The position numbers and the translations under genes were made by a program. 57,972 nucleotides of DNA, taken from a virus. The notes beneath the pieces are model-generated. The model was not told the DNA's origin. It ran no database searches and saw nothing but the letters and a program-made list of their open reading frames with translations. Positions 27,949 through 47,118 of this stretch are shown in pieces. Each line of letters starts with the position of its first letter. Within the stretch, counting starts at the first letter, position 1. The stretch is from positions 1 through 57,972 of IMG/VR virus record IMGVR_UViG_3300036985_006199; one strand, given 5' to 3'.

Positions 27949-28470
27949 ATGGCGACGATGAGGCAGGTCTTCCGGGCGTTGACAGAAGGTGAGTCCGCAT
28001 CGGAGATCACGCACAAGTATGCGCAGGACAGGAGCACGGAGGCCGCCGCTGCATTCGTGGAGCAGTTCAAGCGCGCGGGCTTCAAGATCCTCGATCACCA
28101 ATTCGCCGATGGGTGGGGACTGTCGTCGGCGACCATCCAGATGCTGGGCGTGCGCGTGCCGATCATGGTCGGTGTGCAGAACCTGCCCAAGGGCGTGCAG
28201 ATGCACGTGGAGTTCCAATCGCCGATGTCGCGTGGGCCGCAGTGGGAGGCGCTGGGACCGGAGCTGTTCAAGGCGACGAAGGCGGCCAGTAACGTCTTTC
28301 GAGCGGGCGGCGCTGAGGTGAATGTGGGCAAAAAAGGAAAAGACGATTGGCCCTATGTGTGGATCTATCCGGGGGACGACGTGGCGGATGATGTGAAGCA
28401 ATTTCCGGGGCGCGTGCGGAAGTTCGCGACCGACGTGGCGGCACGCATGTCCCAGTTTGTGGACGCCTGA
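27949..28470 (+). CDS. hypothetical protein with CTS-like leader
   Basis: A 173-residue protein starting MATMRQVFRALTEGESASEI, whose T-M-R-Q-V-F/L-x-x-L-T-E pattern matches the leaders of the 36.9-47.1 kb cassette (for example MSTMRQILREVE at 46133). The body has GFKILDHQFADGWGLSSATI and YPGDDVADDVKQFPGRVRKF, with no recognised domain. It lies outside the main cassette, four bases after the previous gene. If the leader is a capsid-targeting signal, cleavage would be after L-T-E. Confidence 0.6.
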   Translation: MATMRQVFRALTEGESASEITHKYAQDRSTEAAAAFVEQFKRAGFKILDHQFADGWGLSSATIQMLGVRVPIMVGVQNLPKGVQMHVEFQSPMSRGPQWEALGPELFKATKAASNVFRAGGAEVNVGKKGKDDWPYVWIYPGDDVADDVKQFPGRVRKFATDVAARMSQFVDA

Positions 28471-28492
28471 CCGCTAGAGGGGAGCAGTTGAC

Positions 28493-28858
28493 ATGCTGAG
28501 CGAGATGATCATCAAGAGGGAGATCGCCAATGGGATGAGCGCGGTGTGTGCGTGGTGCGAGCATCACTGGTCCGCGTTGAAAGAGGGGCGCACGCCGGGG
28601 TGCCAGCAGCACGACTGCGGCGGTCCGCTCAAGGGGTTGGCGTTCCCGCGCTACAAGGGACCGCGTGCCAACCTGGCGAGCTACTGCTATATCTGCGGCA
28701 CCGATGCCGACATGGCGGTGGAGTTCACGGGGCGTGGCAGCGTTGGATGCTGCAAAGGGCATGAGTCGTCGCTGCGGAAGATGATCGCGCGGGATGGCCA
28801 GGCCGTGGTCGTCAATGAGCGCTTGGTTCCCGTGGTGAGCACGCCTGCGGTGTCTTAG
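28493..28858 (+). CDS. hypothetical Cys-rich (zinc-binding-like) protein
   Basis: A 121-residue protein starting at ATG 28493 (AGGGGAG upstream). Cys/His residues recur: CAWCEHH near residue 19, CQQHDC near 38 and CYICG near 64, then CC. This suggests one or two zinc sites. No known family. Short intergenic spacing on both sides indicates the same operon. Confidence 0.6.
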   Translation: MLSEMIIKREIANGMSAVCAWCEHHWSALKEGRTPGCQQHDCGGPLKGLAFPRYKGPRANLASYCYICGTDADMAVEFTGRGSVGCCKGHESSLRKMIARDGQAVVVNERLVPVVSTPAVS

Positions 28859-28864
28859 CCGCGC

Positions 28865-29728
28865 ATGGCAAAGATACGCTACCAGCGTCCGAAACTGGCT
28901 ACGATGTCGCCGACTCCGACGAGCTACAACCTGGCCCAGACGGTGGCCGTCTACAACGATGTCATCGCGAAATTGCCGGAGCGGGTGGAGCGCGGGCGTG
29001 CGCTGTTCTTGCAGATGATGGCGGGCCTGTTGAAGCAGAAGGTGCAACAGCGTGCCCCGAGGATTCTGATGAACGGCAAGGAGATGAAGTACGCCGAGGA
29101 TCTGCGCATCGCGTTGGTCAGCGGGGCACCCGACGACATGGATGCGATGGCGATCTACCTGGACAGCACGACGGCGGTGTTGACCGAGGAGGCGGCGGGG
29201 CGCACTGCGCTGTACGTGTTACCGCATCGCAAGTCGCCAGGATGGGTCGAGGTGCTCACCAAGTGGGGACCGTGGCCTGCGGAGTTGCTTCCGGTACGCT
29301 TGGCTGGGCAGCACGCGAAGGTGGTCGCGCGGAGTGCGCGCCCGGACGAGCTGCGCGCGCTGACGGTGCGCCTGGGAAAGCGTCGAGTGGAGATCCTGCG
29401 TGAGCTGGAAGACGCCGGGGCTGAGAACCCACGTATGGAGCGCACGCTGTACGGCGTGGGCACGGAGGTGCGGCAGGACATCGCCCACGCGGTCTTGCGG
29501 CGCGAGTTTGGATTGGACGGATTGAGGCCCAAGTCGCACTGGCGGCCTGCCCTGCGCGAGACGGTGGAGGCGGTGCCAGACGCCATGGAGCGCTTCAACC
29601 GTTACATCGTCACGGGACGTGAGAATGTGTTCTTGTTGCCAGAAGTCGATGATCAGATTACGATTAGCCAGTTGCACGATGGCGCCCCATTTGCTCGGGA
29701 GATCGCACCATTCGTGCCCAAACGCTGA
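28865..29728 (+). CDS. hypothetical virion-module protein
   Basis: A 287-residue basic protein (MAKIRYQRPKLATMSPTPTS). Residues 30-60 form a helix (YNDVIAKLPERVERGRALFL); the middle has VLTKWGPWPAELLPVRLAG, resembling the region of a minor virion or tail protein of HK97-gp10 type, where a substrate-like helix (LFLQMMAGLLKQKVQQRAPR) is followed by a beta domain. The assignment is tentative. It starts six bases after the previous stop and has no strong ribosome site. Confidence 0.55.
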   Translation: MAKIRYQRPKLATMSPTPTSYNLAQTVAVYNDVIAKLPERVERGRALFLQMMAGLLKQKVQQRAPRILMNGKEMKYAEDLRIALVSGAPDDMDAMAIYLDSTTAVLTEEAAGRTALYVLPHRKSPGWVEVLTKWGPWPAELLPVRLAGQHAKVVARSARPDELRALTVRLGKRRVEILRELEDAGAENPRMERTLYGVGTEVRQDIAHAVLRREFGLDGLRPKSHWRPALRETVEAVPDAMERFNRYIVTGRENVFLLPEVDDQITISQLHDGAPFAREIAPFVPKR

Positions 29729-29741
29729 AGGAGATGCACCG

Positions 29742-29927
29742 ATGACGCAGCATGAGATGGACAAGTTGAACGCTCTGAACCACACGCTTGGCGATGTCGA
29801 GAACGAACTACTGCGGCGGCGTGTGGCGCACTTGGATTCCGCCATGGACGACAACATGGAAGTCATGAACCAACTCGCCGCACAGGGACACGTCGAGATC
29901 TGCCCGTGCGGTGACGACGAAGAATAG
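29742..29927 (+). CDS. small acidic helical protein (61 aa)
   Basis: A short gene starting MTQHEMDKLNALNHTLGDVE, ending HVEICPCGDDEE, with AAGGAG eight bases before ATG 29742. It is a single predicted coiled-coil helix followed by a CPC pair. Its own ribosome site and tight spacing support it being real. Function unknown; it is followed by a palindrome copy. Confidence 0.6.
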   Translation: MTQHEMDKLNALNHTLGDVENELLRRRVAHLDSAMDDNMEVMNQLAAQGHVEICPCGDDEE

Positions 29928-29933
29928 CCAGAG

Positions 29934-29951
29934 GCGAACCCGGGTTCGCGT
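29934..29951. repeat. dispersed palindrome, copy 6 (perfect core, next to an SD)
   Basis: GCGAACCCGGGTTCGCGT, followed at once by GAGGACGCA and the TTG start of the next gene, the same arrangement as at 51570. Confidence 0.88.
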
Positions 29952-29960
29952 GAGGACGCA

Positions 29961-30650
29961 TTGACGATTATCGGCACGCTAGATCTCCGCGCCTGGGATA
30001 CCGGGGTGCCGCTCACGCTCGAAGCCGAAGTTGTCACCTACCCCGTGGACGGGGAGGAGCGCGGGATCTACGCCGTGCGCGTGCCGGGGGTGAATTCGAA
30101 CCTGGCCCACCTCGATAACCGCGTGCCGATCCTGTTCTACACTCCCGAGGACGCCTATCAGGACTTTTTGCTGCCGTGCATCACGGTGAAGCGCAATGAC
30201 ATGACGCCCGCGTTCGACCGACATCCCTGGTATACGTGGGTGGCGCGCGGACCGGCGAAGGGCGCTCGCGAGATCGTCCTTCCGAGTGGGCAGAAGGGGT
30301 ACGACCGCTACGAGAACCAGTGGCGGGCGACCCAGTTTGACATCACCTACGATGTGCAGATCATGGCGCGGCGACAGCAGGAATCGAACGCCATGTTGCA
30401 GTATGTGCTGCGGCACTTTCTGGCCCCGTCCTTCATTTTCAAGGTTGTTGACAGCCTGGGGGATGTGCGGGAATATGATGCTGTAGATGTTAGTGTTTCG
30501 GAGACGTCGGAGCTTGCCGACATTGCTGACAGGACGATTGGATGGACGATTGCCTTCACAGCCCGTGCGGAAATCGACCTCCACGATCCAGTGGAGATGC
30601 CAGCCGTGCAGGCCGTGGATGTGACGTACGCTCGATACCGTCCGCGTTGA
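29961..30650 (+). CDS. putative tail-completion/connector protein
   Basis: A 229-residue protein with a TTG start (GAGGACGCA before it). It has a beta-rich fold: VPLTLEAEVVTYPVDGEERG; later FDITYDVQIMARRQQESNAM and a C-terminal WTIAFTARAEIDLHDPVEMP. The central part (pairwise R-x-x-Q-F-x-I-x-Y-D-V) resembles the style of tail terminator/connector proteins that sit just upstream of the sheath gene. No definite family. Confidence 0.55.
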   Translation: MTIIGTLDLRAWDTGVPLTLEAEVVTYPVDGEERGIYAVRVPGVNSNLAHLDNRVPILFYTPEDAYQDFLLPCITVKRNDMTPAFDRHPWYTWVARGPAKGAREIVLPSGQKGYDRYENQWRATQFDITYDVQIMARRQQESNAMLQYVLRHFLAPSFIFKVVDSLGDVREYDAVDVSVSETSELADIADRTIGWTIAFTARAEIDLHDPVEMPAVQAVDVTYARYRPR

Positions 30651-30661
30651 GGAGGAGCTGA

Positions 30662-31108
30662 ATGGGTTGGTACTACTACTCGGGCAACGTCGTGAAATCG
30701 ATCCCCGTATCGCGCACCAAGTCGGTCGCGGTGCGGCCGAATTCCAAGATCGAGATCCTGGAAGTGACGCAGGAAGCGCAGACCATGCTGAGCATGGGCA
30801 TCCTGAAGCGCACGGGGAAGCCGCTGGGAGCGATTTCGATGGAGGATGCCCCCCCACGTCCCAAGGTGCATCTGCGGGACGTGCTGCCCCCTTCGGGGCT
30901 GGCCATGCACTTCGCCGAGAAGGGGGTCACGACGTCCGAGGCTCTCCCACCGCGAAAGCCTGTTGGTGCGCCCGAGTTCACCGTCCACGAGTTGGAGGCG
31001 AAGTCGGCTGTTGTTGCGCCCGAGATGCCGGGCGCTGCTGCTGTGTTGCCGGATGATGCTGCCGAAGACAATGAGAGTGGGAAGTCGAAACGGCGGCGCG
31101 GCCACTAG
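30662..31108 (+). CDS. hypothetical protein before the sheath gene
   Basis: A 148-residue protein starting MGWYYYSGNVVKSIPVSRTK, with GGAGGAG before the ATG. Its first 60 residues look folded (beta), and the rest is a Pro/Ala/Glu linker ending in KSKRRRGH. The opening resembles the gene at 24420 in layout (short fold, Pro-rich tail, basic end). Function unknown. Confidence 0.6.
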   Translation: MGWYYYSGNVVKSIPVSRTKSVAVRPNSKIEILEVTQEAQTMLSMGILKRTGKPLGAISMEDAPPRPKVHLRDVLPPSGLAMHFAEKGVTTSEALPPRKPVGAPEFTVHELEAKSAVVAPEMPGAAAVLPDDAAEDNESGKSKRRRGH

Positions 31109-31138
31109 GCCGGGCCTGCGGACAACACGGAGCAGACT

Positions 31139-34337: not shown

Positions 34338-35213
34338 ATGGGAGAAGCGAGAGTACGGATAGACGCGATAACGGAGGTGGCCATCGTGGCCGCTTACCAG
34401 GCGGGCGTCCGTACTCTTTTCGTGGCGAAGCAGTTTGGCGTGAGTGATACGACCGTGCGCAATATGTTGCGGAAGCACGGCATCACGCCAGACGGTCAGC
34501 CTGATCCGTTGAATGCCGACCAGGTAGCAGAGGTTGTACGCCTCTACACCGTGGATGAGTTGAATACGCACCAGATCGCGGAGCAGATGGGCATTGGCAG
34601 CAATGCCACGGTGTTGCGCTATCTCAAGCGGGCTGGCGTGACGATGCGGGCTAGGCTGAAGCGTCACAAGCTGAGTGTGGCGCAGCGTCGTGGACTGGTT
34701 GAGCGGTACGAGGCGGGCGAGAACTTCGCCGACTTGCAGCGTGCCTATGGCGTGTCGAGTTCTGTGGCACATGCATGCCTAGAAGAGCACGGGATCAAGG
34801 CGCGGGCACCGGGCAAGCGGCTTCCGGCTTGGCAGGATGCGAAGGGTCGCACCTGGTTCCTGTCTTCGCGCTGGGAGCGCCTGTACGCGGAGTGGATGGA
34901 TCGTGAGGGTCTGGAGTGGACCTATGAGTCGCGGTGCTTCAAGCTTGATGCCGAGGGTCATGTCCAGTTCACGCCGGACTTTGTCGTGATGGTTGACGGC
35001 GTGGAGGAGTACCATGAGGTTAAGGGCTGGCTGCACAAGGCGGACATCGCCAAGGTGCGGGCGTTCGCCGCGCAGTACCCGCAGGAGGCCACACGACTCA
35101 AGTTGATCGGTCCTGCGGAGATGGCCGCGCGGGGCCTGGAAGCAGAACATTACGAGCGGCATTCGCAGGTGGCGTTGATCGAAGATTTACAGGGCGAGGT
35201 GATCTATGAGTGA
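34338..35213 (+). CDS. HTH + PD-(D/E)XK homing-type endonuclease
   Basis: A 291-residue protein with AGGAG before the ATG. Three helix-turn-helix-like units (about residues 15-48, 62-97 and 112-150; for example LFVAKQFGVSDTTVRNMLRK) are followed by a nuclease domain with E180 in SSRWERLYAEWM, D214 in FTPDFVVMVD and E227-V-K229 in YHEVKGWLHK. This matches a PD-(D/E)XK nuclease fused to target-recognition HTHs, as in free-standing phage homing endonucleases. It is inserted between sheath and the next tail gene, whose start lies inside its 3' end. Confidence 0.8.
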   Translation: MGEARVRIDAITEVAIVAAYQAGVRTLFVAKQFGVSDTTVRNMLRKHGITPDGQPDPLNADQVAEVVRLYTVDELNTHQIAEQMGIGSNATVLRYLKRAGVTMRARLKRHKLSVAQRRGLVERYEAGENFADLQRAYGVSSSVAHACLEEHGIKARAPGKRLPAWQDAKGRTWFLSSRWERLYAEWMDREGLEWTYESRCFKLDAEGHVQFTPDFVVMVDGVEEYHEVKGWLHKADIAKVRAFAAQYPQEATRLKLIGPAEMAARGLEAEHYERHSQVALIEDLQGEVIYE

Positions 35214-36291: not shown

Positions 36292-36855
36292 ATGCCGAGT
36301 CGCCACCCACTGGAAGACCTGCTTCAATCCCACCGCTTCTGGCTGGTCGATCTCGTGCCGTCCTCGACGTTCCCGTTCTTCGTGATGGGCGCCCCGATCA
36401 TGGGGTTCCAGTCGATCACGATGCCCGAGGTGACGTTGGAGGTGGACGAGATCAAGCAGGTCAACTCCATGTACAAGCGGTACGCCTACAGCGGGGGCAG
36501 CGTGGGGGCGATCACGCTGACGCGCGGGGCGCGGGCCTATGATGACACCTTCAACCTGTGGGTGGACCGGGCGATCCGGGGCTACGACATGGTGCCGCGC
36601 AACCTGCTCTTGATCCAGTTCACGGGGATCAACGTGGCGAACGCGCTGGGGCTGAGCGTGGACCTGCCGACGGCGATCCAGGCGTGGGAGGTCGCACAGT
36701 TCCTGCCGGGCAGGGCCTGGTTGCTGTGGGATTGTATCCCGACGCGGTACAAGGCGGGCACGGACATGGACGCGATGTCGGGGGACGTGAGTATAATGGA
36801 ACTCGATATACAGCCAGTAGCCGTAACCGAGTTTGCGCTACTGAGCGTGACGTGA
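36292..36855 (+). CDS. tail tube protein 2 (paralogue)
   Basis: A 187-residue protein related to the one before it. Shared landmarks are GFQSITMPEVTLEVDEIKQV, GAITLTRGARAYDDTFNLWV and CIPTRYKAGTDMDAMSGDVS. The C-terminus ends VAVTEFALLSVT. A remnant encoding a diverged version of this end (AVVEFNPLSVT) lies at 37478-37516, downstream of the next gene, suggesting that the present 3' end was replaced when that gene arrived. The ATG is 15 bases from AGGAGG, an unusually wide spacing. Confidence 0.82.
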   Translation: MPSRHPLEDLLQSHRFWLVDLVPSSTFPFFVMGAPIMGFQSITMPEVTLEVDEIKQVNSMYKRYAYSGGSVGAITLTRGARAYDDTFNLWVDRAIRGYDMVPRNLLLIQFTGINVANALGLSVDLPTAIQAWEVAQFLPGRAWLLWDCIPTRYKAGTDMDAMSGDVSIMELDIQPVAVTEFALLSVT

Positions 36856-36892
36856 GAGAGGAAAAGATGCGCAAACTGATCGAGCAAATGGA
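36842..36892 (+). repeat. 51-bp direct repeat, copy A (tube end, SD and leader)
   Basis: Identical 51-bp segment also at 37503-37553. It covers the last codons of the tube gene (L-S-V-T-stop), the GAGAGGAAAAG ribosome site and the first codons MRKLIEQM of the following gene. Confidence 0.97.
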
Positions 36893-37472
36893 TTATGCGA
36901 AAGACATCTTTGGGAATCGGGCGGTTCTGTTTAGCGATCTCAAGAACGGCGATGTGTTCGGACGGACAACGGATGACGGAGAACGTCCGTATGTCAAAGT
37001 GGGCAAACGGACCGCAGTGTTGCAGGACAAGTATCATGGCAAGGACACGAAGAAGTATGACATCTGGCGTGTTGCGCTGGACGAATATGTCGAGCGTAAG
37101 GGAAGGATCGCGGAATCCACAATGTTGACAATGGCGGCGGTTTTCCATCGGTTGGAAGAGTCCGAACTGGCTGCGGCGAGTAAGTTCATGCGTGGGGACA
37201 TGGGGTTGCACATCATCAAGTACCCATCTGGTCGGTTTGGATTCGTGGGGAAAGTCCCGGTGGAGCTGGGATATGCCAGGAAAGATGGGAAGCCGTTCGA
37301 TGCGGAGTCGCGCAAGAAGCTCAAAGACGATTTGAGTTTCGGGATGCCAGTTATTGGGAAAGAAAAGTCTGCCTTTGTGAGTCTGTCGTGGGCCACGGCG
37401 AAAGATGCGCTGAAAGCGGCGCGCAAGGCTGGGTTCGAGGTAGAACAAGACGCTGATTACCCGCAGGATTGA
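36867..37472 (+). CDS. CTS-leader protein A (hypothetical cargo)
   Basis: A 201-residue protein starting MRKLIEQMDYAKDIFGN. The first eight residues are identical to the protein at 37528 because both lie in the 51-bp direct repeat. The body is basic and alpha/beta (DIWRVALDEYVERKGRIAES; YPSGRFGFVGKVPVELGYAR) with no named domain. Ribosome site GAGAGGAAAAG. It is more AT-rich than the tube genes. It appears to have been inserted next to the tube gene, leaving the flanking duplication. The leader suggests head targeting (LIE could be the cleavage site). Confidence 0.65.
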   Translation: MRKLIEQMDYAKDIFGNRAVLFSDLKNGDVFGRTTDDGERPYVKVGKRTAVLQDKYHGKDTKKYDIWRVALDEYVERKGRIAESTMLTMAAVFHRLEESELAAASKFMRGDMGLHIIKYPSGRFGFVGKVPVELGYARKDGKPFDAESRKKLKDDLSFGMPVIGKEKSAFVSLSWATAKDALKAARKAGFEVEQDADYPQD

Positions 37473-37477: not shown

Positions 37478-37516
37478 ATGGCCGTGGTGGAGTTCAATCC
37501 GTTGAGCGTGACGTGA
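37478..37516 (+). pseudogene. remnant of the tail tube 2 gene 3' end
   Basis: The short frame MAVVEFNPLSVT-stop matches the end of the tube 2 protein (VAVTEFALLSVT). It has no upstream ribosome site of its own and is most simply the original 3' end of the tube gene, displaced by the cargo gene in between. Confidence 0.7.
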
Positions 37517-37553
37517 GAGAGGAAAAGATGCGCAAACTGATCGAGCAAATGGA
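37503..37553 (+). repeat. 51-bp direct repeat, copy B
   Basis: Identical to 36842-36892 and 661 bp downstream of it, ending in the first codons of the gene at 37528. Confidence 0.97.
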
Positions 37554-38127
37554 CAGGGTCATGGGCGATAGTCGGAAGAAGCGGGCGACCATGGATGCGG
37601 ATACCCACGAGACTGTCTGGGGGCTGGGTGCCGAGGCCGCGCGATCAGGTGGCAAGAAGTTCGATCTCGATGGCGCCTTCATAGCTGCGGTGCGGAAGTA
37701 TGGGACCAAGGTGTTCCCGGCTGCCAAAGCCCGCGAGGACGACCCTTGGTTCGACGAGTTCTTCCAGGCGTTTCGAGATGGCGCGGCAGCGGCTGGGGCT
37801 TCAGTAGATGAAGCGACGGGCGTTCTGAACGTGCTGACCGAGGCGAAGGTCTGGGCCACGAAGGGGCTTTTGGATTTCGGCTGGACTCCGTTCTCTCGCG
37901 AAGTGGAGATCGGCTTAGGGGGCGAGTGGTGGGCAGGTGAGCTGTCGCCGCAGGCAGGCAAGTCGGTGACGTTCCATCATCGCAAGGAGAAGGTGGACGA
38001 GGCGTACAAGCCGGTGCTCGTGGCCTGGGAGTTCGGGAAGGACGCGACGGTGGTGACCATCACAGGCGGCTTCCTGAGTGAACCGGCGACGGTGGAGTTG
38101 GGCGTGAAGAAGGTCGTGTCCGAGTGA
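37528..38127 (+). CDS. CTS-leader protein B (hypothetical cargo)
   Basis: A 199-residue protein with the leader MRKLIEQMDRVMGDSRKKRA. The central region (DPWFDEFFQAFRDGAAAAGA) is helical and the C-terminal part is beta-rich (ELSPQAGKSVTFHHRKEK; ATVVTITGGFLSEPATVELG). A GTG five codons upstream is in frame, but the ATG has the ribosome site GAGAGGAAAAG. Function unknown; cargo role inferred from the leader and location. Confidence 0.65.
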   Translation: MRKLIEQMDRVMGDSRKKRATMDADTHETVWGLGAEAARSGGKKFDLDGAFIAAVRKYGTKVFPAAKAREDDPWFDEFFQAFRDGAAAAGASVDEATGVLNVLTEAKVWATKGLLDFGWTPFSREVEIGLGGEWWAGELSPQAGKSVTFHHRKEKVDEAYKPVLVAWEFGKDATVVTITGGFLSEPATVELGVKKVVSE

Positions 38128-38149
38128 TCACGAGCCGGAGGAGATGACG

Positions 38150-38962
38150 ATGCGACGACTGATTGAATCCTTGGGGTCGACGGACATGCGGGCGATCCTG
38201 GAGCGGCTGGAAGTGAAGACGAAGACGGGTGTGACCCTGCGCGTGCTGAGCGGGGGGCAAGAACCCGAGCCAGATGTCGCCGCCGCGTCCCAGGGAGCGG
38301 AGCCGCCGTCGTCATCGAAGCCATCCGAGTACGGCTACGTGGGGACCAGCGTCGGTGTGCCGGTCGGCGAGACCGTCGAGCGCGATGGCCTGCGGTTCCA
38401 TCGGTACGCCTCCAGCTTGCGCGTGACGGACATCACCAACGCGGGGAAGCGTGGGAAGTCGTGTCCCGAGTTCGCGCTGTTCAACCTGGACTACGGGGTG
38501 AAGGACGCGAAGCAGATCGCGGCGGTGGAGGATGCCTTGAAGGACATCGCCAAGGCAAAGACCTATGCGCAGGCCGTGGCCCTTGCCCGAGGGGTAGCGG
38601 CCAAGGATTCGCAGCGCGGGATGGCGTTTGCCAGCGTGGAAGAGCGGCAGTTGCGCGGGGTGGACGTGGAGCCTGCGTCGGACAGCACTGGGCGCACCAT
38701 CAAGATCGAGACGCCGACCTTTACGCTGGAGGCCGGGGCGACCGACTTCTCGGTGGCTGAGAAGGTGCGCCCTGGGCATGGCGGTGATGATACCCGGATG
38801 ATCATCCCACCTGTCGGTGGCGCGAAGAAGACGGCGATCACGGTGTTCCGTTCCTGGGTGAAGCAGAACCTGAACGACATCAAACGCATGACGTTCCGCG
38901 AGCTGAGCAAGGCGATGGCAGACGCAGGCCTGAACTATCACAGCTTCAGCACGATGGATTGA
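38150..38962 (+). CDS. CTS-leader protein C (hypothetical cargo)
   Basis: A 270-residue protein. ATG 38150 is favoured over 38144 because GGAGGAG (38137-38143) is then 6 bases away. Leader MRRLIESLGSTDMRAILERL, followed by a Pro/Ser/Ala linker (about residues 38-60) and a folded domain of about 200 residues containing FALFNLDYGVKDAKQIAAVE and ETPTFTLEAGATDFSVAEKV. It ends with a helical segment, FRELSKAMADAGLNYHSF. No family recognised. LIES would fit an L-x-E cleavage site. Confidence 0.65.
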   Translation: MRRLIESLGSTDMRAILERLEVKTKTGVTLRVLSGGQEPEPDVAAASQGAEPPSSSKPSEYGYVGTSVGVPVGETVERDGLRFHRYASSLRVTDITNAGKRGKSCPEFALFNLDYGVKDAKQIAAVEDALKDIAKAKTYAQAVALARGVAAKDSQRGMAFASVEERQLRGVDVEPASDSTGRTIKIETPTFTLEAGATDFSVAEKVRPGHGGDDTRMIIPPVGGAKKTAITVFRSWVKQNLNDIKRMTFRELSKAMADAGLNYHSFSTMD

Positions 38963-38972: not shown

Positions 38973-39353
38973 ATGCGGTCACTGATTGGACGGATCGAGA
39001 GCATCTTCGAGGACTACAGCGCGATGGTCGACGACCCGAAGCACATGCCGAAGGTGCTGGCGAAAGCGTTCGTGGAATACCTGAAGCCACTGGGCAAGGT
39101 GAAGGTCGTCAAGGCCGAGGCCACGGCGCCGCGCGGTTGGGACTACGGGTTCCTCGGCATCTTCGAGATCACATACGACGGTGAGCCGGTGAAGTTGACG
39201 CTGTCCATGCCTATCGCGAGGAACGAGACGGGTGGAAACGTGGCAGCCGATGGTGGGTACGGAGTGATCGCGACATCGAACAAGGCGGCGGATGTCGACA
39301 AGGCGCTGCGCTACATGGCCAGCGAGGTCGTGACCCGCTTCAAAAAGCGATAG
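38973..39353 (+). CDS. CTS-leader protein D (hypothetical cargo)
   Basis: A 126-residue protein with the leader MRSLIGRIESIFEDYSAMVD. The body looks like a small alpha/beta domain: FVEYLKPLGKVKVVKAEATA, then YGFLGIFEITYDGEPVKLTL and ALRYMASEVVTRFKKR. GAGGAGG precedes the ATG. Function unknown; leader and operon position link it to the cargo cassette. Confidence 0.65.
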   Translation: MRSLIGRIESIFEDYSAMVDDPKHMPKVLAKAFVEYLKPLGKVKVVKAEATAPRGWDYGFLGIFEITYDGEPVKLTLSMPIARNETGGNVAADGGYGVIATSNKAADVDKALRYMASEVVTRFKKR

Positions 39354-40088: not shown

Positions 40089-40099
40089 GGAGGTGCATG

Positions 40100-40717
40100 A
40101 TGGGCAAGCTAGGACGGCTGGGAACGCAGATGATGACCGAGGCTACTGCGATCACGCAGAACGCCAAGGCAGTGCGGCAGGGGCAGATCCTGCCCAGCGA
40201 GAAGCGGGATTCTGGGTATTTCGGACGGATCGAGTTCCGGTTTGAAAACGCGGACGAGATCTGGGCGGAGACGTTTCGCGTGATCATGTCCGAGATGCCT
40301 GACGTGTCTTCAATGGCGATCAGAGACTATCTGGACTCGAAAAGCGGGATGCACTTCGGTGATCTGGTGGCTGGGGAACTAAAGAAGACGTTGCCAACGC
40401 CGGATTCGGCTTTGTACGGTCGAGTGTTCAATCCCAAGATGGCGGACGTGAAGCGCGTCGTGGCGTTAGTGTTTGGCGCCAATCCATGGATGCAGAAACA
40501 CCTCGCGGAGTATGCAAAGGACCAGGAAGCATCCACTAGCGGGACGATGTCTTCCATTGGCAGGTGGGTAGACAGCGTTGTCAATGCGTTCGAGCTGGCG
40601 CAGGACCAGGAGAAGAAGAAGAACTGGAAAGAGCGAGATGCGGCCTTGCACGACTTGCAGAAGGCGGCGGACCAGTTGCTCACAACATCCAGGGCCTGGA
40701 TGGCACAGAGGAGATAG
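40100..40717 (+). CDS. hypothetical protein of the cassette (no CTS-like leader)
   Basis: A 205-residue protein. ATG 40100 has GGAGGTG four to five bases upstream. It starts MGKLGRLGTQMMTEATAITQ, has RDYLDSKSGMHFGDLVAGEL and PKMADVKRVVALVFGANPWM, and ends in a helix QKAADQLLTTSRAWMAQRR. The 3' end appears duplicated: a diverged copy of the last 19 codons (41166-41225) lies after the following gene. Function unknown. Confidence 0.62.
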   Translation: MGKLGRLGTQMMTEATAITQNAKAVRQGQILPSEKRDSGYFGRIEFRFENADEIWAETFRVIMSEMPDVSSMAIRDYLDSKSGMHFGDLVAGELKKTLPTPDSALYGRVFNPKMADVKRVVALVFGANPWMQKHLAEYAKDQEASTSGTMSSIGRWVDSVVNAFELAQDQEKKKNWKERDAALHDLQKAADQLLTTSRAWMAQRR

Positions 40718-40720: not shown

Positions 40721-41164
40721 ATGAAGACGATGCGGGACATTTTCGAAGGTATTTCTAAGCGGTTGGGACCAGATGAGTTTGAGTTCCAAGGAAAAAAAGG
40801 ACGCTGGCGCACAGTAAAAGGTAGCGAGATTTTCTTTCCAGAAGATGGGTCTGGGCCTATGGGCATGCCGAATGGCATGAAAAAGTCGAAAAACGATGAT
40901 GAAGGACCAGACTTGTCTTTCAAAGGAAAGCCTGTTCCTATTGATAAAAGCCATTGGAAGAACACTTCTGATGAACAGATCGGGAGGCTTGTATCTCAAG
41001 TGATGTTCCTTGAATACGATGCGTATAGAAAGAAGAATCCGAAGAAGTTCAAGAGTGAAAAGGCAGAAATCGCTGACAAGATTGAATTCTTCAAATACGG
41101 AATAGATGACAAGGTTCGTTCAGAGATGGCACATGGTGCAAAATGGGCTGGTATCAAGTGGTAG
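40721..41164 (+). CDS. CTS-leader protein F (recently acquired, AT-rich)
   Basis: A 147-residue protein with the leader MKTMRDIFEGISKRLGPDEF. Its codon use is clearly more AT-rich than its neighbours, and its flanks carry a 23-bp duplication (40696-40718 and 41204-41226), so it looks recently inserted. The body includes FQGKKGRWRTVKGSEIFFPE and SEKAEIADKIEFFKYGIDDK, with no known domain. The ribosome site AGAGGAGATAG is in the duplicated segment. Confidence 0.65.
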   Translation: MKTMRDIFEGISKRLGPDEFEFQGKKGRWRTVKGSEIFFPEDGSGPMGMPNGMKKSKNDDEGPDLSFKGKPVPIDKSHWKNTSDEQIGRLVSQVMFLEYDAYRKKNPKKFKSEKAEIADKIEFFKYGIDDKVRSEMAHGAKWAGIKW

Positions 41165-41229: not shown

Positions 41230-41526
41230 ATGAGAACGATGCGCGAGTTGTTTGAAGCGGTCGAGATGCCTACTGAGCAGGATGTCGAAGAGGCGTTTGG
41301 CGTCTTGGAGGCACAGCTCAAGAAGTACAAGCTGGAGACCAAGAGCGGGCGTTTGCGCACTGCCGATCCTGACGAGTTCCAGCTCATGGACATGACGGAC
41401 GTCTACTGGCGCTTCAAGCACAGCCCGACCCGGAACTATCTGTACGTGGAGCGCAACACGAAGCGCCACAACATCGTGGTGCCCAACGAGGGTAAGCCCT
41501 TCTTCATGGGCTACTTCGATGCGTGA
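41230..41526 (+). CDS. CTS-leader protein G (98 aa, hypothetical cargo)
   Basis: A 98-residue protein with the leader MRTMRELFEAVEMPTEQDVE, related to the leader at 40721. The body is short: a helix (EEAFGVLEAQLKKYKLE) and a beta-rich C-terminus (MTDVYWRFKHSPTRNYLYVE). Ribosome site AGAGGAGATAG. LFEA fits an L-x-E/A cleavage site. Function unknown. Confidence 0.65.
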   Translation: MRTMRELFEAVEMPTEQDVEEAFGVLEAQLKKYKLETKSGRLRTADPDEFQLMDMTDVYWRFKHSPTRNYLYVERNTKRHNIVVPNEGKPFFMGYFDA

Positions 41527-41532
41527 GGAACG

Positions 41533-41970
41533 ATGACGGAGCGTGTGACAGTGGCGTCGGACGTCCTGGATCGCGTGCGTGCGATCTTGCGAGAACGTCG
41601 CCTGGTCGAGCGAGAGGCCCAGCAGCCGCGTCCGAGCCAGGGGGCTGCCCGTGCTACTGCTCGATTGAAAGCGCCGCTCCTGGGGACGAACAAGCGCCCT
41701 GTGGGGGAAGTGCGGGTGCTGGTCATCGTGCCCAACGATCCGCTGGACGGGGTGGACGTGCATGTGCGGTGGACGCGCGTGGGGTTCGCGTTCTGGTATG
41801 TGAAGACGGTGGATCTCGGGCCGCTGGAGGACGCCGAGGCGGCGGACCTGGCGGGGGTCGAGATGGTGCTGACGGCGGTGGGTTGGACGGCCAGCGGGTC
41901 GGTGCCGCTGCGGTCGATGAACCGGGCGTTTCCAAAGGTGCGCAAGAGCGCGAGTGACGTGACGCTGTAG
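41533..41970 (+). CDS. hypothetical cassette protein
   Basis: A 145-residue protein starting MTERVTVASDVLDRVRAILR, seven bases after the preceding stop. The first 30 residues form a charged amphipathic helix that loosely resembles the CTS-like leaders but lacks the L-I-E core. A beta-rich C-terminal domain follows (GEVRVLVIVPNDPLDGVDVH; FAFWYVKTVDLGPLEDAEAA). Function unknown. Confidence 0.6.
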   Translation: MTERVTVASDVLDRVRAILRERRLVEREAQQPRPSQGAARATARLKAPLLGTNKRPVGEVRVLVIVPNDPLDGVDVHVRWTRVGFAFWYVKTVDLGPLEDAEAADLAGVEMVLTAVGWTASGSVPLRSMNRAFPKVRKSASDVTL

Positions 41971-41995
41971 CGCGAGAACGATACGGAGGACGGCG

Positions 41996-42556
41996 ATGTC
42001 GTTGAGAAAATTGGTCGAGGATGTCCAGTCGGTGATGGAGTGGGGCGGGCGCGGGCGTGGGCGTGGTTACAGCCAAGATCCCTACCTGACGAAGGCGAAG
42101 GTAGCGGGGACCGACGTCAAGGGGCTGCCCTACAAGAAGGGCGACGAGATCATGATCTACAAGGACGGCGCCATCTACGCGGGAGCCAACAAGGACAAGG
42201 CGTGGCGGGAGTTCCAGGCGGCCAAGGATGACGAGGCGTTCATGAGCGGGGGCATGGAGAGCGCGGAGTCGACGGGGCCGGAGCTGGACGAGGCGAAGGA
42301 GATGAGTCCGCGCGAGCTGATCGACAAGGGCGACAACCTGATCAAGATCTTGGAGGGCGCTGTTGAGGAGATGCGCAAGGGTGTTGCGGAAGCACAGGCG
42401 GAGCTGAAGGGCTACGCGCGCATCGGCGTGCCGGAGCGGGCGGCTTCTGCGCTGCTGAAGAAGCACATGCTTCCACCGGCAGAGCGCTTGGAGGACATGG
42501 CCAAGAAGGTGCGCGAGACCATCGAGGACGGAATCAAGGTGTTTTCGCGGGAGTGA
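41996..42556 (+). CDS. CTS-leader protein H (hypothetical cargo)
   Basis: A 186-residue protein with the leader MSLRKLVEDVQSVMEWGGRG, close to that of the protein at 46786. Residues 20-60 are basic and Gly-rich (RGRGYSQDPYLTKAKVAGTD); residues about 95-186 are a helical coiled-coil domain (ELIDKGDNLIKILEGAVEEM). GGAGGA precedes the ATG. Function unknown; LVED would fit the protease consensus loosely. Confidence 0.65.
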   Translation: MSLRKLVEDVQSVMEWGGRGRGRGYSQDPYLTKAKVAGTDVKGLPYKKGDEIMIYKDGAIYAGANKDKAWREFQAAKDDEAFMSGGMESAESTGPELDEAKEMSPRELIDKGDNLIKILEGAVEEMRKGVAEAQAELKGYARIGVPERAASALLKKHMLPPAERLEDMAKKVRETIEDGIKVFSRE

Positions 42557-42561
42557 ATGAC

Positions 42562-42969
42562 ATGCTGATGCTCACATTGATTGAGAAGATCGAGCGGGAG
42601 ATGACAGAGGCAGACAACCTGCTGGAACATCTCCAAAGCGAAGATTTTGTGGGATGGGCGTCAGAGCAAGGTTTGGCCAGGATTGATCCAAGACGCGGTG
42701 AGGCACTAGAGAAGACAGTTGCATTGATAGATAAAATAATAAAGCCACTTGAGAAGATACATCGGGAAATTGTAAAGGCGAAAGATGTGTTGGCAGATCG
42801 TAATCCAAAGCAATGGGGTCATGGCAAGAGCGACACATTGATGTATAACGCAATGTCTAATTTGTCATATCTTAGCGATGCGATATGGAAAAACATGGGG
42901 ATTGCCCAGGATGTTATTTCAACTCTCTATGATGCGGGAGAAGCGGCCATGCCAAAGCCGAGGGATTGA
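42562..42969 (+). CDS. CTS-leader protein I (AT-rich, hypothetical cargo)
   Basis: A 135-residue, all-helical protein with the leader MLMLTLIEKIEREMTEADNL. The gene is markedly AT-rich compared with its neighbours, a sign of recent acquisition. It contains TVALIDKIIKPLEKIHREIV and SNLSYLSDAIWKNMGIAQDV, like a helical bundle. An in-frame GTG at 42553 is less likely, because GGGAG sits 8 bases before ATG 42562. Function unknown. Confidence 0.65.
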   Translation: MLMLTLIEKIEREMTEADNLLEHLQSEDFVGWASEQGLARIDPRRGEALEKTVALIDKIIKPLEKIHREIVKAKDVLADRNPKQWGHGKSDTLMYNAMSNLSYLSDAIWKNMGIAQDVISTLYDAGEAAMPKPRD

Positions 42970-42987
42970 GAAACACAGGAGACGATC

Positions 42988-43608
42988 ATGACGATGCGGT
43001 ATCTCATTGAGCGGATCAACAGATTGCTTGAGGCGCGGAGCGTGGAGGTAGCAGTCAAGGAATTGCCGGACGCGATCCGCAAGGCGCTCAAAGAGGTGGG
43101 GTATCGCAGTCGGGACATCGGCGTGGTGCCGCAGGCGACCGTGAGCCTGAACCCCTACGCGGGGGACGGCGAGCGCGGATTTGCGGTGCTCGTGAACCTC
43201 TCGACGGGGGCCTCCAAGGTGGTGCGGGGCGACTGGGGTGGGAGTTCGCCAGTGGGCGGGCCGTCCATCGACCAGGATCGTGGCGACCATCCCTTGCCGC
43301 GTGACGGCGTGGCCATCGTGGGCAGCTCGGGCGGGCGGGGTACCTATGCGACGATCTACGTGCATCCTGACAGCGTGGTTCCGTTGCTCCCAGGTGATGT
43401 GGAGATGAGCGAGCGTGAGGCGGGCATCTTGCGCAGCATGGGGATGACGTCGAGCTACCGCAAGGAGCTGTTTGCGGACATGAAGGTGCAGCAGAGCGAG
43501 GTCGACGCGCTGGTCAAGCGCGGGTGGATCGCGGTGAACAAGGCGGGGGCGTTGAGTTTGACGACAGCGGGCAAGAACGCGGCGCAATCTGCGCATGCAC
43601 GACGTTGA
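42988..43608 (+). CDS. CTS-leader protein J (hypothetical cargo)
   Basis: A 206-residue protein starting MTMRYLIERINRLLEARSVE; AGGAG lies 7 bases before ATG 42988. The body has IRKALKEVGYRSRDIGVVPQ, a Gly-rich beta region (AVLVNLSTGASKVVRGDWGG; RGTYATIYVHPDSVVPLLPG) and a C-terminal winged-helix-like segment (VDALVKRGWIAVNKAGALSL). No known family. Confidence 0.65.
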   Translation: MTMRYLIERINRLLEARSVEVAVKELPDAIRKALKEVGYRSRDIGVVPQATVSLNPYAGDGERGFAVLVNLSTGASKVVRGDWGGSSPVGGPSIDQDRGDHPLPRDGVAIVGSSGGRGTYATIYVHPDSVVPLLPGDVEMSEREAGILRSMGMTSSYRKELFADMKVQQSEVDALVKRGWIAVNKAGALSLTTAGKNAAQSAHARR

Positions 43609-43618
43609 TGGTGATCTG

Positions 43619-44977
43619 ATGAACATGAGCGCGTTGATGGCCTTGTACGAGCATCGCATGATCATGGAAGACACCATGGCCGTGACGCCAGAGCTGATCG
43701 CGAAGCTGCGCAAGGACTTCCTGGTGCTCGTGGGGAACGTGCCGCGTGTGGATACGGTGGAGAAGCTGACGACGTTCCGGTTGGGCGTGAAGACGTTTCG
43801 CGATCTGCTAGAGCGCATCATGAACACGGCCAAGGAGTATCTGGGCGATGTGGCGCGGTTCGCGGAGTTGAAGTTTGATAACGCGCTGGCGTCGGATGCC
43901 CGTTACTTGGCGGACCACATGAGCGATGCGTGGAAGCTGCACATGGCGCTGATCGTGCCGGGACAGAGTTTGGAGTCCATCGTTCGCGCCGCTTCCGGCA
44001 ACAGTTACTTCCTGGGTAGGGCGCAGGAGACATACCTGTACAAATTCACAAGTGAGGCAAAGAAGTGGGATGCCGCAGCACGGCGGGTGGCCCCGAAGGC
44101 GTGGAAGTGGTTCGAGAGCGCGGCGACGACTGTTGCCAAGGGTGCGGCGTATGGTGGGCGCGGGGCGCTAAAGGTGGATCGCGGCACGGGGACATTGCGT
44201 GAACTGGCGGGGTTCAAGGTGCGGTTGGATGGGTTTTCGGGGAGCGACTTTGACGTTGAGGGAGTGCAGCGGTTTGAGCAGGGATTGATCTTATTTCGCC
44301 AGTTGGCGGGCAAGCGCTTTCCCAGCTTGCTGCGGAACACGACGCCTTTCGTCTTGGTCTTCTCGGGAGATGCGACAGGGGGCCGAGCGGCTGCGCATTG
44401 GACGGCGAATGAGGTCGTCGTGTCGTTCTGGGGGATGCAAAACGATCCGAAGAGGACGGCGCATACGATTGCGCACGAACTGGCGCACGGGGTCTATCGC
44501 ACCTATTTGAGCGGCGAGGCGCGGGATGCCTGGGAGACGTTCATTAAGGGCAGCACGGAGAGCTTGGATCTGCGACAGGTGCTCAAGGACATTGGGGACG
44601 ACGGATGGCTGCACGAGCCGACCGCGTACAAGGACGATCCGATCCGTTGGTTGCAGGTGTCTGGGCTCGGACATGATCGGAGCTATCGGTTTGAGCGCGG
44701 GTCGGACATTCGGAAATGGCTGGACGGTGGCGGCGATTCCGTGGTGCAGGTGACACGGGTGCCGATCACGGCGTATGCCAGTACGAATCCCGAAGAAGCC
44801 TTCTGCGAGGCGTTTGGCATGCTGATCGCGTATGGGCCACGGACGGTATTGCCCGAGGTGCGTCAGATGCTGGGCATGGTGCTGCCGCAGCTCAGGACCG
44901 AGTGGGTGGAGTTTGGGACATTGCTCTTGTTGCTGGAGGCGAAAGCCGGAGGTTTCCCATGCCATCGAACTGCCTGA
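43619..44977 (+). CDS. zincin-type metalloprotease, putative CTS-leader cargo
   Basis: A 452-residue protein. The helix HTIAHELAHGVYRTYLS holds the zinc motif H286-E-L-A-H290, and downstream NPEEAFCEAFGMLIAYG (residues 390-406) can give the third, acidic ligand, as in ATLF- or SprT-like zincins. The N-terminus MNMSALMALYEHRMIMEDTM is a weak match to the cassette leaders. It is predicted to be a peptidase; the substrate is unknown. If it is head cargo, it could be delivered to the host. ATG 43619 is chosen over 43595, but the ribosome site is weak. The 3' end overlaps the amidase gene by 19 bases. Confidence 0.72.
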   Translation: MNMSALMALYEHRMIMEDTMAVTPELIAKLRKDFLVLVGNVPRVDTVEKLTTFRLGVKTFRDLLERIMNTAKEYLGDVARFAELKFDNALASDARYLADHMSDAWKLHMALIVPGQSLESIVRAASGNSYFLGRAQETYLYKFTSEAKKWDAAARRVAPKAWKWFESAATTVAKGAAYGGRGALKVDRGTGTLRELAGFKVRLDGFSGSDFDVEGVQRFEQGLILFRQLAGKRFPSLLRNTTPFVLVFSGDATGGRAAAHWTANEVVVSFWGMQNDPKRTAHTIAHELAHGVYRTYLSGEARDAWETFIKGSTESLDLRQVLKDIGDDGWLHEPTAYKDDPIRWLQVSGLGHDRSYRFERGSDIRKWLDGGGDSVVQVTRVPITAYASTNPEEAFCEAFGMLIAYGPRTVLPEVRQMLGMVLPQLRTEWVEFGTLLLLLEAKAGGFPCHRTA

Positions 44978-45636
44978 TCGTGAATGGTGAGAAGGTCGCG
45001 GTCCCCACGTCGATCCTCGACCTGGGGTGTCGGGTCTACAACTTCATCGACGATGGGGAGCCCAACTTGCGGAACGCTCCGCGCACGAAGCCGGTCCAGC
45101 ACTTGGTGCTGCACGAGACGGCGGGGAACAGCGCGACGGGCTGCAAGGACACCCTGCGCCAGAAGAAGATCGGCGTGCACCTGATCCTGGGCAAGAACGG
45201 CGACCTCTCGTGCCACGCGGATCTGGCGACGGACGTGTGCTGGCACGGGAACCAGTTGAACGCTACGTCGGTGGGCATCGAGGTGGTGAACCCTTATCGA
45301 CCGGAGTACGCGCGCAATCCGCGTGGGCCGGTGCTCCCGGCGCAGTGGTGGACGTGGATTCCGCCGGGGCATGAGCGGACCTACCAGGCGCCGCTGGGCG
45401 TGCAGGTGGCCATCGTCAAGGCGCTTGTGCCGTGGCTGTGCGAGGTCATGGGCATCCCCTACGAGTTTCCGACGAAGGGCCTGAACGCGAAGGCGCGGCA
45501 GATCACGGGCTGGAAGGCTCCGCCGCTGGGGTGGTATGCGAAGCCGGGGCCGGGCGTCGTGGCGCACAGGGATTATAGTTCCCATTCCGATGCCAGGTAT
45601 TTGCTGGAGCAGGTGATGGGAGGAACCCTGGGATGA
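44959..45636 (+). CDS. N-acetylmuramoyl-L-alanine amidase (endolysin or virion lysin)
   Basis: A 225-residue Amidase_2-type (T7 lysozyme-like) enzyme. Zinc ligands and core motifs are visible: HLVLHETAGNSATG (H52), KKIGVHLILGKNGDLSCHAD (H74), WHGNQLNATSVGIEVVNPY, and GVVAHRDYSSHSDARYLLEQ near the C-terminus. It cleaves the amide bond between muramic acid and the peptide stem. No signal peptide or cell-wall-binding domain is evident, so a holin or virion location is needed for access. ATG 44959 has GGAGG upstream and overlaps the end of the metalloprotease gene. Confidence 0.92.
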   Translation: MPSNCLIVNGEKVAVPTSILDLGCRVYNFIDDGEPNLRNAPRTKPVQHLVLHETAGNSATGCKDTLRQKKIGVHLILGKNGDLSCHADLATDVCWHGNQLNATSVGIEVVNPYRPEYARNPRGPVLPAQWWTWIPPGHERTYQAPLGVQVAIVKALVPWLCEVMGIPYEFPTKGLNAKARQITGWKAPPLGWYAKPGPGVVAHRDYSSHSDARYLLEQVMGGTLG

Positions 45637-45971
45637 ATTCGAACGACCGGCTGCGCGCGTTACTGGACGACCTGCCGAGTGCGGCTCCGCGTGTGATGCT
45701 GACCGAGGCGGCGCAGCGCTTGATGCGGTCGTTGAAAACGCAGGGGGAGCGGGCGGTACGCGGACGGCTGGTGACGCAGTACGTGTTCGAGGCGGTGCAG
45801 CGGCCGGGCGGGGTGTCGATCACCATGCGGATCGAGGGGCGGCACGCGATGTCGGTGGCGCAGCAACTTGCCAAGCGGTTCGCCATGGGGGAAGATATGG
45901 GGAGTGCCGAGGTGACGCGCACGGAGCGCGGGGCCGTGCTGGAGCTGCGGCCACGGGAGACGCGATCATGA
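45633..45971 (+). CDS. hypothetical cassette protein (112 aa)
   Basis: A 112-residue basic protein starting MNSNDRLRALLDDLPSAAPR, overlapping the amidase stop by four bases (ATGA). It has a helical first half and an antiparallel beta second half (GGVSITMRIEGRHAMSVAQQ). The stop overlaps the next start as well (ATGA at 45968). No transmembrane segment, so a holin is unlikely. Function unknown. Confidence 0.6.
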   Translation: MNSNDRLRALLDDLPSAAPRVMLTEAAQRLMRSLKTQGERAVRGRLVTQYVFEAVQRPGGVSITMRIEGRHAMSVAQQLAKRFAMGEDMGSAEVTRTERGAVLELRPRETRS

Positions 45972-46123
45972 TCGTGGAGCTGAAGAAGGTGAAGGCGCAG
46001 AAGCGGAACCGGAAGCGGGCCATGGACTGGCGCGCTGCGCAGACGTCGGGCATCGTACCGTTGCCCATTTCGATGAGCACCAACGCGCCGCTACCAGCGG
46101 TGCCCGCCACGGGCGGACCATAG
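45968..46123 (+). CDS. small hypothetical protein (51 aa)
   Basis: Starts MIVELKKVKAQKRNRKRAMD at the ATG that overlaps the preceding stop, and ends PAVPATGGP. It has a strongly basic N-terminal half and a Pro/Ala-rich tail. Translational coupling (ATGA) and tight spacing support it. Function unknown. Confidence 0.55.
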   Translation: MIVELKKVKAQKRNRKRAMDWRAAQTSGIVPLPISMSTNAPLPAVPATGGP

Positions 46124-46132
46124 GAGATCCAC

Positions 46133-46720
46133 ATGAGCACCATGAGACAGATTCTTCGAGAGGTGGAGACGACTTCGGCACGCACGCCTGTGGGCGAGGC
46201 CGTGAACGCGGCGGTGGTGGATCGCATGGCGCAGGCCATGCTGGACAGCCCGAAGCTGGCTCCGATTGCCGGGCGCGTGCTCGACGACGAGCAATGGGAG
46301 ATGTTCAGCGGGCTCATGTTGGAGCCGCTGCGGGCGTTGATCGCCAAGGCGCTGGACGTGTCCGGCGTGGCGGTCTCGGGCGGCCTGCTGTCCAAGGCAG
46401 GGCGGGAGATGAAGAGCGCCGCACGCGGCGATATCGGCGTGAGCGAGGGATTGAAAGACGCAGGGATACTTGATGCGATCAAGGCGGATTGGGCAAATAT
46501 CTTGGCGCAGCTCGTTGCGGACAAGAACAACGAGGAATACTACCAGCCTGGTGTAAATCCTGATGAGTATGGCAAAAGAACATCCGAAAAGATGATGTCA
46601 AAAATGATCGCAAATCCAAGGGATGCGCGTGGAGCGTTGAGTAGGAATTCTGCTCTAAAGAAGGCGGCAGCGCGAAATGGCATCAAAACTTCAGCACAAT
46701 GGGATTCGTTATTCGCGTGA
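46133..46720 (+). CDS. CTS-leader protein K (hypothetical cargo, mosaic)
   Basis: A 195-residue protein with the leader MSTMRQILREVETTSARTPV and AGGAG six bases upstream. Residues 20-100 are GC-rich helical sequence (AAVVDRMAQAMLDSPKLAPI; LEPLRALIAKALDVSGVAVS). From about residue 105 the codon use turns AT-rich (ADKNNEEYYQPGVNPDEYGK), suggesting that the 3' half was replaced. The frame ends near residues of no known family. Function unknown. Confidence 0.62.
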   Translation: MSTMRQILREVETTSARTPVGEAVNAAVVDRMAQAMLDSPKLAPIAGRVLDDEQWEMFSGLMLEPLRALIAKALDVSGVAVSGGLLSKAGREMKSAARGDIGVSEGLKDAGILDAIKADWANILAQLVADKNNEEYYQPGVNPDEYGKRTSEKMMSKMIANPRDARGALSRNSALKKAAARNGIKTSAQWDSLFA

Positions 46721-46785
46721 GACTCTGTTGTGCAATGGTGCAGTCGGAAGTTTCTACAGAAGAATGAATTGAGCAAGGAGACACC

Positions 46786-47118
46786 ATGTCGTTACGGAAA
46801 CTGGCCCATGACGTGCGGCGGACGCTGGCGGAGGCTTCGCCGGAGTTCCGTTCGGGGCGTGCCGAGGTGGAGAAGCTGATCGACGCCATGCTGGCGGGGT
46901 CGCAGGTGGAGCCCAGGGCCAAGGCCGTCATCGGGCGCGATGGCGACATGGCGAAGCTGCTGGGCGATCTGCGCCTGGCGCTGTACCCCATTGTCGTGCA
47001 CACCCTCCAGAGGATGGGCGGCAAGGTCGGCGGGTCCGGGAACGTGCAGGCGGCGTTGCGTGGCATGGCGCGGGAGGAGCGCGAGCACCCCCCGACCCCC
47101 GGCATCGATCTGGATTGA
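46786..47118 (+). CDS. CTS-leader protein L (110 aa, hypothetical cargo)
   Basis: A 110-residue protein with the leader MSLRKLAHDVRRTLAEASPE. The body is helical (RAEVEKLIDAMLAGSQVEPR; MAKLLGDLRLALYPIVVHTL). GGAGAC lies before the ATG. It is the last + strand gene of the cassette and ends next to, and facing, the minus-strand gene at 47119. LAEA could be a cleavage site. Function unknown. Confidence 0.62.
   Translation: MSLRKLAHDVRRTLAEASPEFRSGRAEVEKLIDAMLAGSQVEPRAKAVIGRDGDMAKLLGDLRLALYPIVVHTLQRMGGKVGGSGNVQAALRGMAREEREHPPTPGIDLD

Follow-up and report, generated by a model that had tools for sequence, protein, structure and literature searches.

A common N-terminal leader, probably capsid-targeting, on exchangeable proteins of an uncultivated T4-type myovirus and its relatives

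Results

A leader peptide shared by unrelated proteins

The 57,972-nt fragment of an uncultivated myovirus analyzed here (the window; virus record G000, IMGVR_UViG_3300036985_006199) carries a gene cassette many of whose products begin with the same short leader in front of unrelated bodies. This leader is almost certainly a selected, modular peptide, as judged from the sequences of the window and its relatives. We infer that the leaders are probably capsid-targeting propeptides on exchangeable proteins that are packaged into the head, cleaved there and probably injected.

The capsid protein of the window shares 27-30% identity with T4-type gp23 and with that of Rhodothermus phage RM378, and the portal and sheath match T4-type families. 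RM378 serves as reference for the 'Far-T4' phages (PMC4360716), so the window phage is probably Far-T4-like. A scan of IMG/VR found 32 loci with related capsid genes. Whole records were taken from this database for 17 relatives and later for six more distant ones (labeled G001, G002 etc., the distant T4-like contigs being G021-G023). Genes in the relatives were called with our own caller based on hexamers and Shine-Dalgarno (SD) sequences.

The 77 unique strict leaders of the window and the 17 relatives follow the consensus M-x(0-5)-[RK]-x-[LI]-[IVFL]-E-[RK..]-[LKI..], with 2.9-3.5 bits in each of the R/K, L/I, I and E columns. At 12 bits or more, the profile matches 100 of the 2148 genes, compared to 6.5 expected from internal-methionine decoys. 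An earlier note on the window had suggested a profile search with the leader alone, which was run with a profile trained on the relatives only (70 leaders; decoys, 391 internal methionines). Ten of the 59 window genes score at least 8 bits with this leave-window-out profile (0.3 expected) and ten score at least 10 bits (0 expected), namely those at 36867, 37528, 38144 (scored from an internal start at 38150), 38973, 39364, 40721, 41230, 41996, 42562 and 42988. Unsupervised counts of residue triples at the N-termini of the window and four relatives found LIE, R.LI and R.L.E to be most enriched. Chance or start-codon bias as the source of the leader is ruled out by shuffles and the internal-methionine decoys.

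All twelve open reading frames (ORFs) named or implied in the earlier note exist with the starts given there, and each falls into a family of its own when the first 20 residues are removed before BLAST comparison, so that the bodies are indeed unrelated. Most of the twelve leaders score in the leave-window-out profile. Those at 27949, 46133 and 46786 score low alone and have conserved leader-like orthologs: MTTMRQIFESL in G004 for the first, MNTMRKIMREVE and MTLRRLAHEVRRALEEA in G007/G002/G003 for the other two. The leader gene at 42562 was missing from that list. Across the 17 relatives, 134 leader proteins stripped of their leader form 84 BLAST families, of which 77 are left after removal of a few capsid/protease genes and doubtful matches; single genomes encode up to about 20 leader proteins. 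A HAD-like leader protein (G009 17694) is not used in the argument because its true start may lie 39 nt downstream.

In G021-G023, the distant T4-like contigs, no leader reached 10 bits; for RM378, there was one clear match. The expansion is therefore not general to T4-like phages; it belongs to the clade with a capsid identity of roughly 56% or more. A narrow DNA pattern of SD sequence plus leader, applied to all IMG/VR contigs, gave 67 single matches and never two on one contig stretch, an uninformative result.

The genes of the window cassette and one isolated gene are as follows (a slash marks a putative cut site; RBS, ribosome-binding site):

36842..36892 (+), 51-bp exact repeat, copy 1: RBS region and first 26 nt of leader coding sequence
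36867..37472 (+), leader protein MRKLIEQMDYAK..., 201 aa, no Cys; 17 bits in the leave-window-out profile
37503..37553 (+), 51-bp RBS and leader repeat, copy 2, preceding an unrelated body
37528..38127 (+), leader protein MRKLIEQMDRVM..., 199 aa; internal domain of ~90 aa, leaderless copy in G007 142003
38144..38962 (+), leader protein MTMRRLIESL..., 272 aa; orthologs with another leader and a ~240-aa insert
38973..39353 (+), leader protein MRSLIGRIESIFE/D..., 126 aa
39364..40068 (+), leader protein MKNLIEST..., 234 aa; C-terminal half strongly basic
40097..40717 (+), divergent leader MMGKLGRLGTQMMTE/A...; orthologs MTTMRRLSGLLTE/A and MGNLGRLGIRLMNE/S
40721..41164 (+), leader protein MKTMRDIFE/G..., 147 aa
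41230..41526 (+), leader protein MRTMRELFE/A..., 98 aa
41533..41970 (+), cassette protein without clear leader, Cys-free; kept in relatives
41996..42556 (+), leader protein MSLRKLVEDV..., 186 aa
42562..42969 (+), leader protein MLMLTLIEKIEREMTE/A..., 135 aa; an in-frame start at 42553 would make it longer
42988..43608 (+), leader protein MTMRYLIERINRLLE/AR..., 206 aa
43625..44977 (+), HExxH metallopeptidase-like protein with divergent leader MSALMALYE/HRMIME/D; ortholog MGSLILLVEHRMLTE (G007, 75%)
44902..45636 (+), N-acetylmuramoyl-L-alanine amidase (PF01510), Cys-rich, no leader
45633..45971 (+), cassette protein, Cys-free; LTE/A at residue 25; orthologs in at least 7 relatives
46133..46720 (+), leader-like protein MSTMRQILREVE..., 195 aa
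46786..47118 (+), leader-like protein MSLRKLAHDVRRTLAE/A..., 110 aa
27949..28470 (+), isolated leader-like protein MATMRQVFRALTE/G...; ortholog in G004

Selection on the peptide and exchange of bodies

Across families, the R, L, I and E of the leader are encoded by all of their synonymous codons, with differing DNA upstream. With the codons free to vary, the peptide itself must be under selection. Orthologs, including those of the 42988 family, retain the leader motif while the adjoining residues change. The genes at 36867 and 37528 have exactly 51 bp in common (25 nt upstream and the first 26 coding nt) and none beyond. A DNA repeat or regulatory element as the source of the leader is ruled out by the codon diversity, bar this one pair.

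Leaders and bodies are found in changing combinations. The small domain of the 41996 protein (residues 20-86) recurs in other contexts in G007, G002, G003 and G018; it is 82% identical to part of G007 138048, which has another leader and a helical segment in front. The domain of the 37528 protein is leaderless in G007 142003 and is followed there by an internal MAMRGLIRRLEESS. A KTSC domain carries a leader in G005, G006, G011 and G012 and none in G007 and G002. Similarly, the C-terminal half of the anti-Thoeris protein Tad6 (model positions 66-145) lies behind a leader in G005, and a near full-length Tad6 is leaderless in G011.

Composition and possible functions of the bodies

Leader bodies contain 0.26% Cys, compared to 0.69% for virion genes and 1.54% for other genes. 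The Cys-free fraction is 74% versus 25% (p=2e-22), and the net charge is positive for leader bodies and negative for other genes (p=5e-11). This basic, Cys-free signature holds for the leader bodies as a group, with single exceptions. The T4 proteins IPI-III, gp67, gp68, gp21 and gp22 are all without Cys, and the T4 internal proteins (IPs) are basic. Cassette genes without a recognizable leader are Cys-free in 68% of cases (21% outside the cassette) and have an early L-x-E-[ASG] in 45% (14% outside). The whole cassette therefore resembles a stock of packaged proteins, in part with divergent leaders.

Two cassette proteins of relatives (G011 166631-167395 and G015 52642-53277) are Cys-free and leaderless, have a net charge of +38 to +43 and start with MTTTSGNIAG/MTTSANIDG (here the slash separates two variants). 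They are possible DNA-condensing head proteins.

In Pfam, the window cargo matches nothing with confidence; in PHROG, it matches families of unknown function only. A second HExxH protein is located behind MRQLIRRLEEA in a second leader cluster of G007, G002 and G003. In the AlphaFold model of the 42988 protein (predicted local distance difference test, pLDDT, 70), the leader forms a separate low-confidence helix (3-15) and the C-terminal part is winged-helix-like. Its matches in the PDB are weak ones to winged-helix repressors such as MarR (best E 0.04), and no function is claimed. The model of the metallopeptidase (pLDDT 34.5) is not usable.

T4 IPI, IPII and IPIII inhibit different GmrSD nucleases and have the leader as their sole common part (PMC12373910). 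By analogy, counter-defense would be the likeliest common theme of the bodies here; that it is their main role is an evenly balanced proposition.

Prohead protease, capsid protein and cut sites

The head genes of relevance are:

13047..17186 (+), T4-type portal (PF07230), 1379-aa ORF interrupted by an intein-like sequence
19212..20840 (+), prohead protease (S77, gp21 family), 542 aa; PF03420 E 6e-20, PHROG head maturation protease 1e-45
20862..22472 (+), major capsid protein (gp23 family), predicted cut LHE/D at residue 66

The gp21-like protease that the earlier note had placed at 19212 is thus confirmed by its Peptidase_S77 match, and an S77 protease was found in all 17 relatives first searched as well. 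The N-terminus of the window protease, MPQLLIE/T, resembles that of T4 gp21, MNEPQLLIET (MNEPQLLIETWG). The N-terminal extension of the capsid protein is also leader-like (QARNIVE, EARELFE, EAREMFE), with none in T4 or RM378, and its predicted cut at residue 66 is close to Glu65 of T4, where the gp23 propeptide has 65 residues (PMC9026906).

gp21 cleaves after L/I-x-E; in the T4 IP leaders, core targeting depends mainly on residues 4 and 7 and the cut is at residue 10 (PMC9026906). The leader core L-I-E fits the gp21 motif. A second [LIMVF]-x-E-[ASG] is present within residues 10-39 in 30 of the 77 leader families, compared to 7/73 deeper in leader proteins and 267/1834 in other genes (p=3e-5 and 3e-7). 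For many leader proteins, this downstream h-x-E followed by A, S or G would be the likelier cut, rather than one straight after LIE.

The window protease is far longer than T4 gp21 (212 aa), and its C-terminal part may be a scaffold fused to the protease. In G007 (60337-63132, near the major capsid protein gene), G017 and G018, the S77 frame has two matches ~1 kb apart in frames of 937-967 aa, which suggests an inserted element such as an intein. The ORF at the terminase position (7066-13044, 1992 aa) and the portal ORF contain intein splicing domains with HNH and LAGLIDADG endonuclease domains.

Genomic locus in the relatives

The cassette is located between the tail-tube genes and the baseplate-hub/tape-measure genes in the window, G007, G002, G005, G011, G012 and G015. 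Its content is hypervariable among the relatives while the locus stays fixed. The leader positions in G003 correspond to those in G002. A second leader cluster is found elsewhere in G007, G002 and G003, and also in G005 and G011. The Cys-rich amidase lies within the cassette in every relative where the interval is present and mapped; the window copy at 44902 is a probable endolysin, nested at the same place as in the relatives.

Two neighboring genes were also noted. One, for an HTH/transposase-like protein, is inserted between the sheath and tail-tube genes (34338-35213), with a relative at the same spot in G012. The other, an RRXRR/HNH-like gene (PF14239, 49314-50549), is inserted ahead of the baseplate hub gene and is absent there in G007.

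Discussion

Proposed route of the leader proteins

The leader proteins would be made late in infection along with the head genes. Their short amphipathic N-terminal helix (M-R-x-L-I-E-x-h...) would bind the prohead core, and the body would be enclosed on closure of the gp23-type shell. The S77 protease would then cut after L/I-x-E in or just behind the leader and free the body inside the head, where it would remain with the DNA, most likely entering the next cell alongside it. There the bodies may act in the first minutes of infection, chiefly against host defenses. Through gain of a leader, unrelated bodies would join the set, and bodies that are related would trade leaders. A separable address label and body would explain a fixed locus with ever-changing contents. 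Enclosure in the head is very likely and cutting by the S77 protease likely, if a little less so; delivery of the bodies to the host is somewhat favored.

The earlier note had proposed an exchangeable set of head-packaged cargo proteins with a leader like the T4 capsid-targeting sequence (CTS). This proposal is supported, as each of its predictions open to sequence analysis is borne out: the selection on the peptide, the modular bodies, the leader swaps, the gp21-family protease, the L/I-x-E sites including that of the capsid protein at the place of the T4 site, the basic, Cys-free bodies and the hypervariable content at a fixed locus across relatives. The interpretation accounts for all of the observations.

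Several points weigh against this interpretation. The genes around the cassette are those of the tail, not of the head. R or K follows LIE in 39 of the 77 leaders and an obvious second A/S/G site is present in only about 40%, so the exact cut is uncertain for many of them. The T4 CTS consensus with aromatic residues at positions 4 and 7 is not matched by the leader. The leader counts depend on our own gene caller and the profile was trained on strict matches in the same genomes, with only the window count escaping this circularity. The counter-defense role is drawn from one partial Tad6 match and from analogy. These phages are uncultivated, and we know of no virion proteomics for the group.

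Alternative explanations

The leader proteins could instead be parts of the prohead core or scaffold that are enclosed, chopped and expelled at maturation rather than delivered. The leader is like the start of T4 gp67, which belongs to the core and is cleaved into fragments (PMC9026906), several leader proteins have more than one L/I-x-E, and T4 core proteins are likewise Cys-free. This role is nevertheless unlikely, given that the bodies are hypervariable at a fixed locus, unlike essential core proteins, that some have enzyme- or inhibitor-like domains (the Tad6 half, HExxH peptidases, KTSC), and that they are basic, in contrast to the strongly acidic gp67 and gp22 of T4.

The leader could also be a tag for docking at or sorting to the tail, the baseplate or a place in the infected cell. 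This would agree with the position of the cassette next to tail genes and with the R or K after LIE in many leaders, which is unlike typical gp21 sites. It is improbable to a still greater degree, as the leader motif is the motif of the prohead protease, these phages have leader-like N-termini on their protease and capsid protein too, and the bodies have the composition of T4 internal head proteins. Duplicated DNA or a translation-start element without a functional peptide, for which the 51-bp repeat at 36867 and 37528 speaks, is hardly credible in view of the full codon usage, the upstream DNA unrelated across families and the changing flanks of the leader in the 42988 family.

Comparison with known systems

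Capsid-targeting propeptides as proposed here are known from T-even phages, which also have a T4-type head and an S77 protease, gp21, that cuts the CTS of their IPs. IPI, IPII, IPIII and Alt likewise have unrelated small, basic, Cys-free bodies behind a common short leader with L/I-x-E, and T-even IP bodies include counter-defense proteins (PMC9026906, PMC12373910). The loci are variable in both cases and associated with a lysis gene: T4 ipII and ipIII adjoin the lysozyme gene e, and the cassette here encloses an endolysin-type amidase. The differences are a consensus of MRxLIE instead of MKTYQEF-IAE, a locus among tail genes and an often present second putative cut site. A single genome here has up to about 20 leader proteins, and the 17 relatives have about 80 body families between them; T4 has three IPs plus Alt, and its relatives are reported to have at least ten IPs. 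The T4 IPs are not among the matches of the leader profile. The likeness to the T4 CTS claimed in the earlier note extends to the short N-terminal position and the L/I-x-E motif and not to the MKTYQEF-IAE pattern; the closest known sequence among those found is the N-terminus of T4 gp67, MEGLIEAIKS. gp67 is one acidic, fragmented core protein, in contrast to the diverse bodies here.

In phage P1, an N-terminal signal takes the defense-countering Dar proteins into the head, 30 residues of DarB being sufficient for a reporter (PMC9024508). The Dar N-termini are without common consensus (PMC9024508), whereas the leaders here have a clear one, and P1 is without a separate T4-type scaffold. SPN3US and phiKZ-type phages have ejection proteins that are processed by the prohead protease and ejected with the DNA. 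Several of these have propeptides exceeding 100 residues and only one is of CTS length (PMC5694885), compared to about 6-25 residues for the leaders here, and the head genes are those of giant phages instead of a T4-type capsid and portal. The earlier note knew of no description of such a cassette. The principle is described for T-even IP loci, so that the novelty lies in the scale, the consensus and the phage group; these are new as far as the open-access literature shows.

Implications

Injected phage proteins are hard to recognize because their bodies have nothing in common. The leader can be recognized in the sequence and flags about 80 body families together, in a phage group that has no close cultured members. 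Nearly all of these families lack a match in Pfam or PHROG. They are a ready list for screening early-acting counter-defense proteins, one of which is already half of an anti-Thoeris protein. They also form a natural experiment on the gain and exchange of capsid-targeting peptides, including the 51-bp leader block before two bodies. It may also be that the leader is a second and independent tag by which proteins are loaded into phage heads.

Delivery could even be open-ended: any gene acquiring the ~50-bp block of RBS and leader would become head cargo, and each phage would carry a rotating set of 10-30 injected effectors, built by leader swapping and not by descent. The effectors would comprise counter-defense proteins, metallopeptidases and DNA-binding proteins, nearly all undescribed. 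This joint proposal is tentative, falling a little short of evenly balanced.

Apart from the cassette, a tract of ~1 kb at 4700-5680 appears to be non-coding and is built from degenerate GGNNN pentamers; GG occurs 195 times in 1049 nt, and the autocorrelation of G at lag 5 is 0.45. G007 has a similar tract at 49.0-50.0 kb, ~1.4 kb ahead of its terminase gene, as do G001 and G004, and G011 has one on the opposite strand. It is possibly a two-tier G-quadruplex tract, or a packaging or replication signal.

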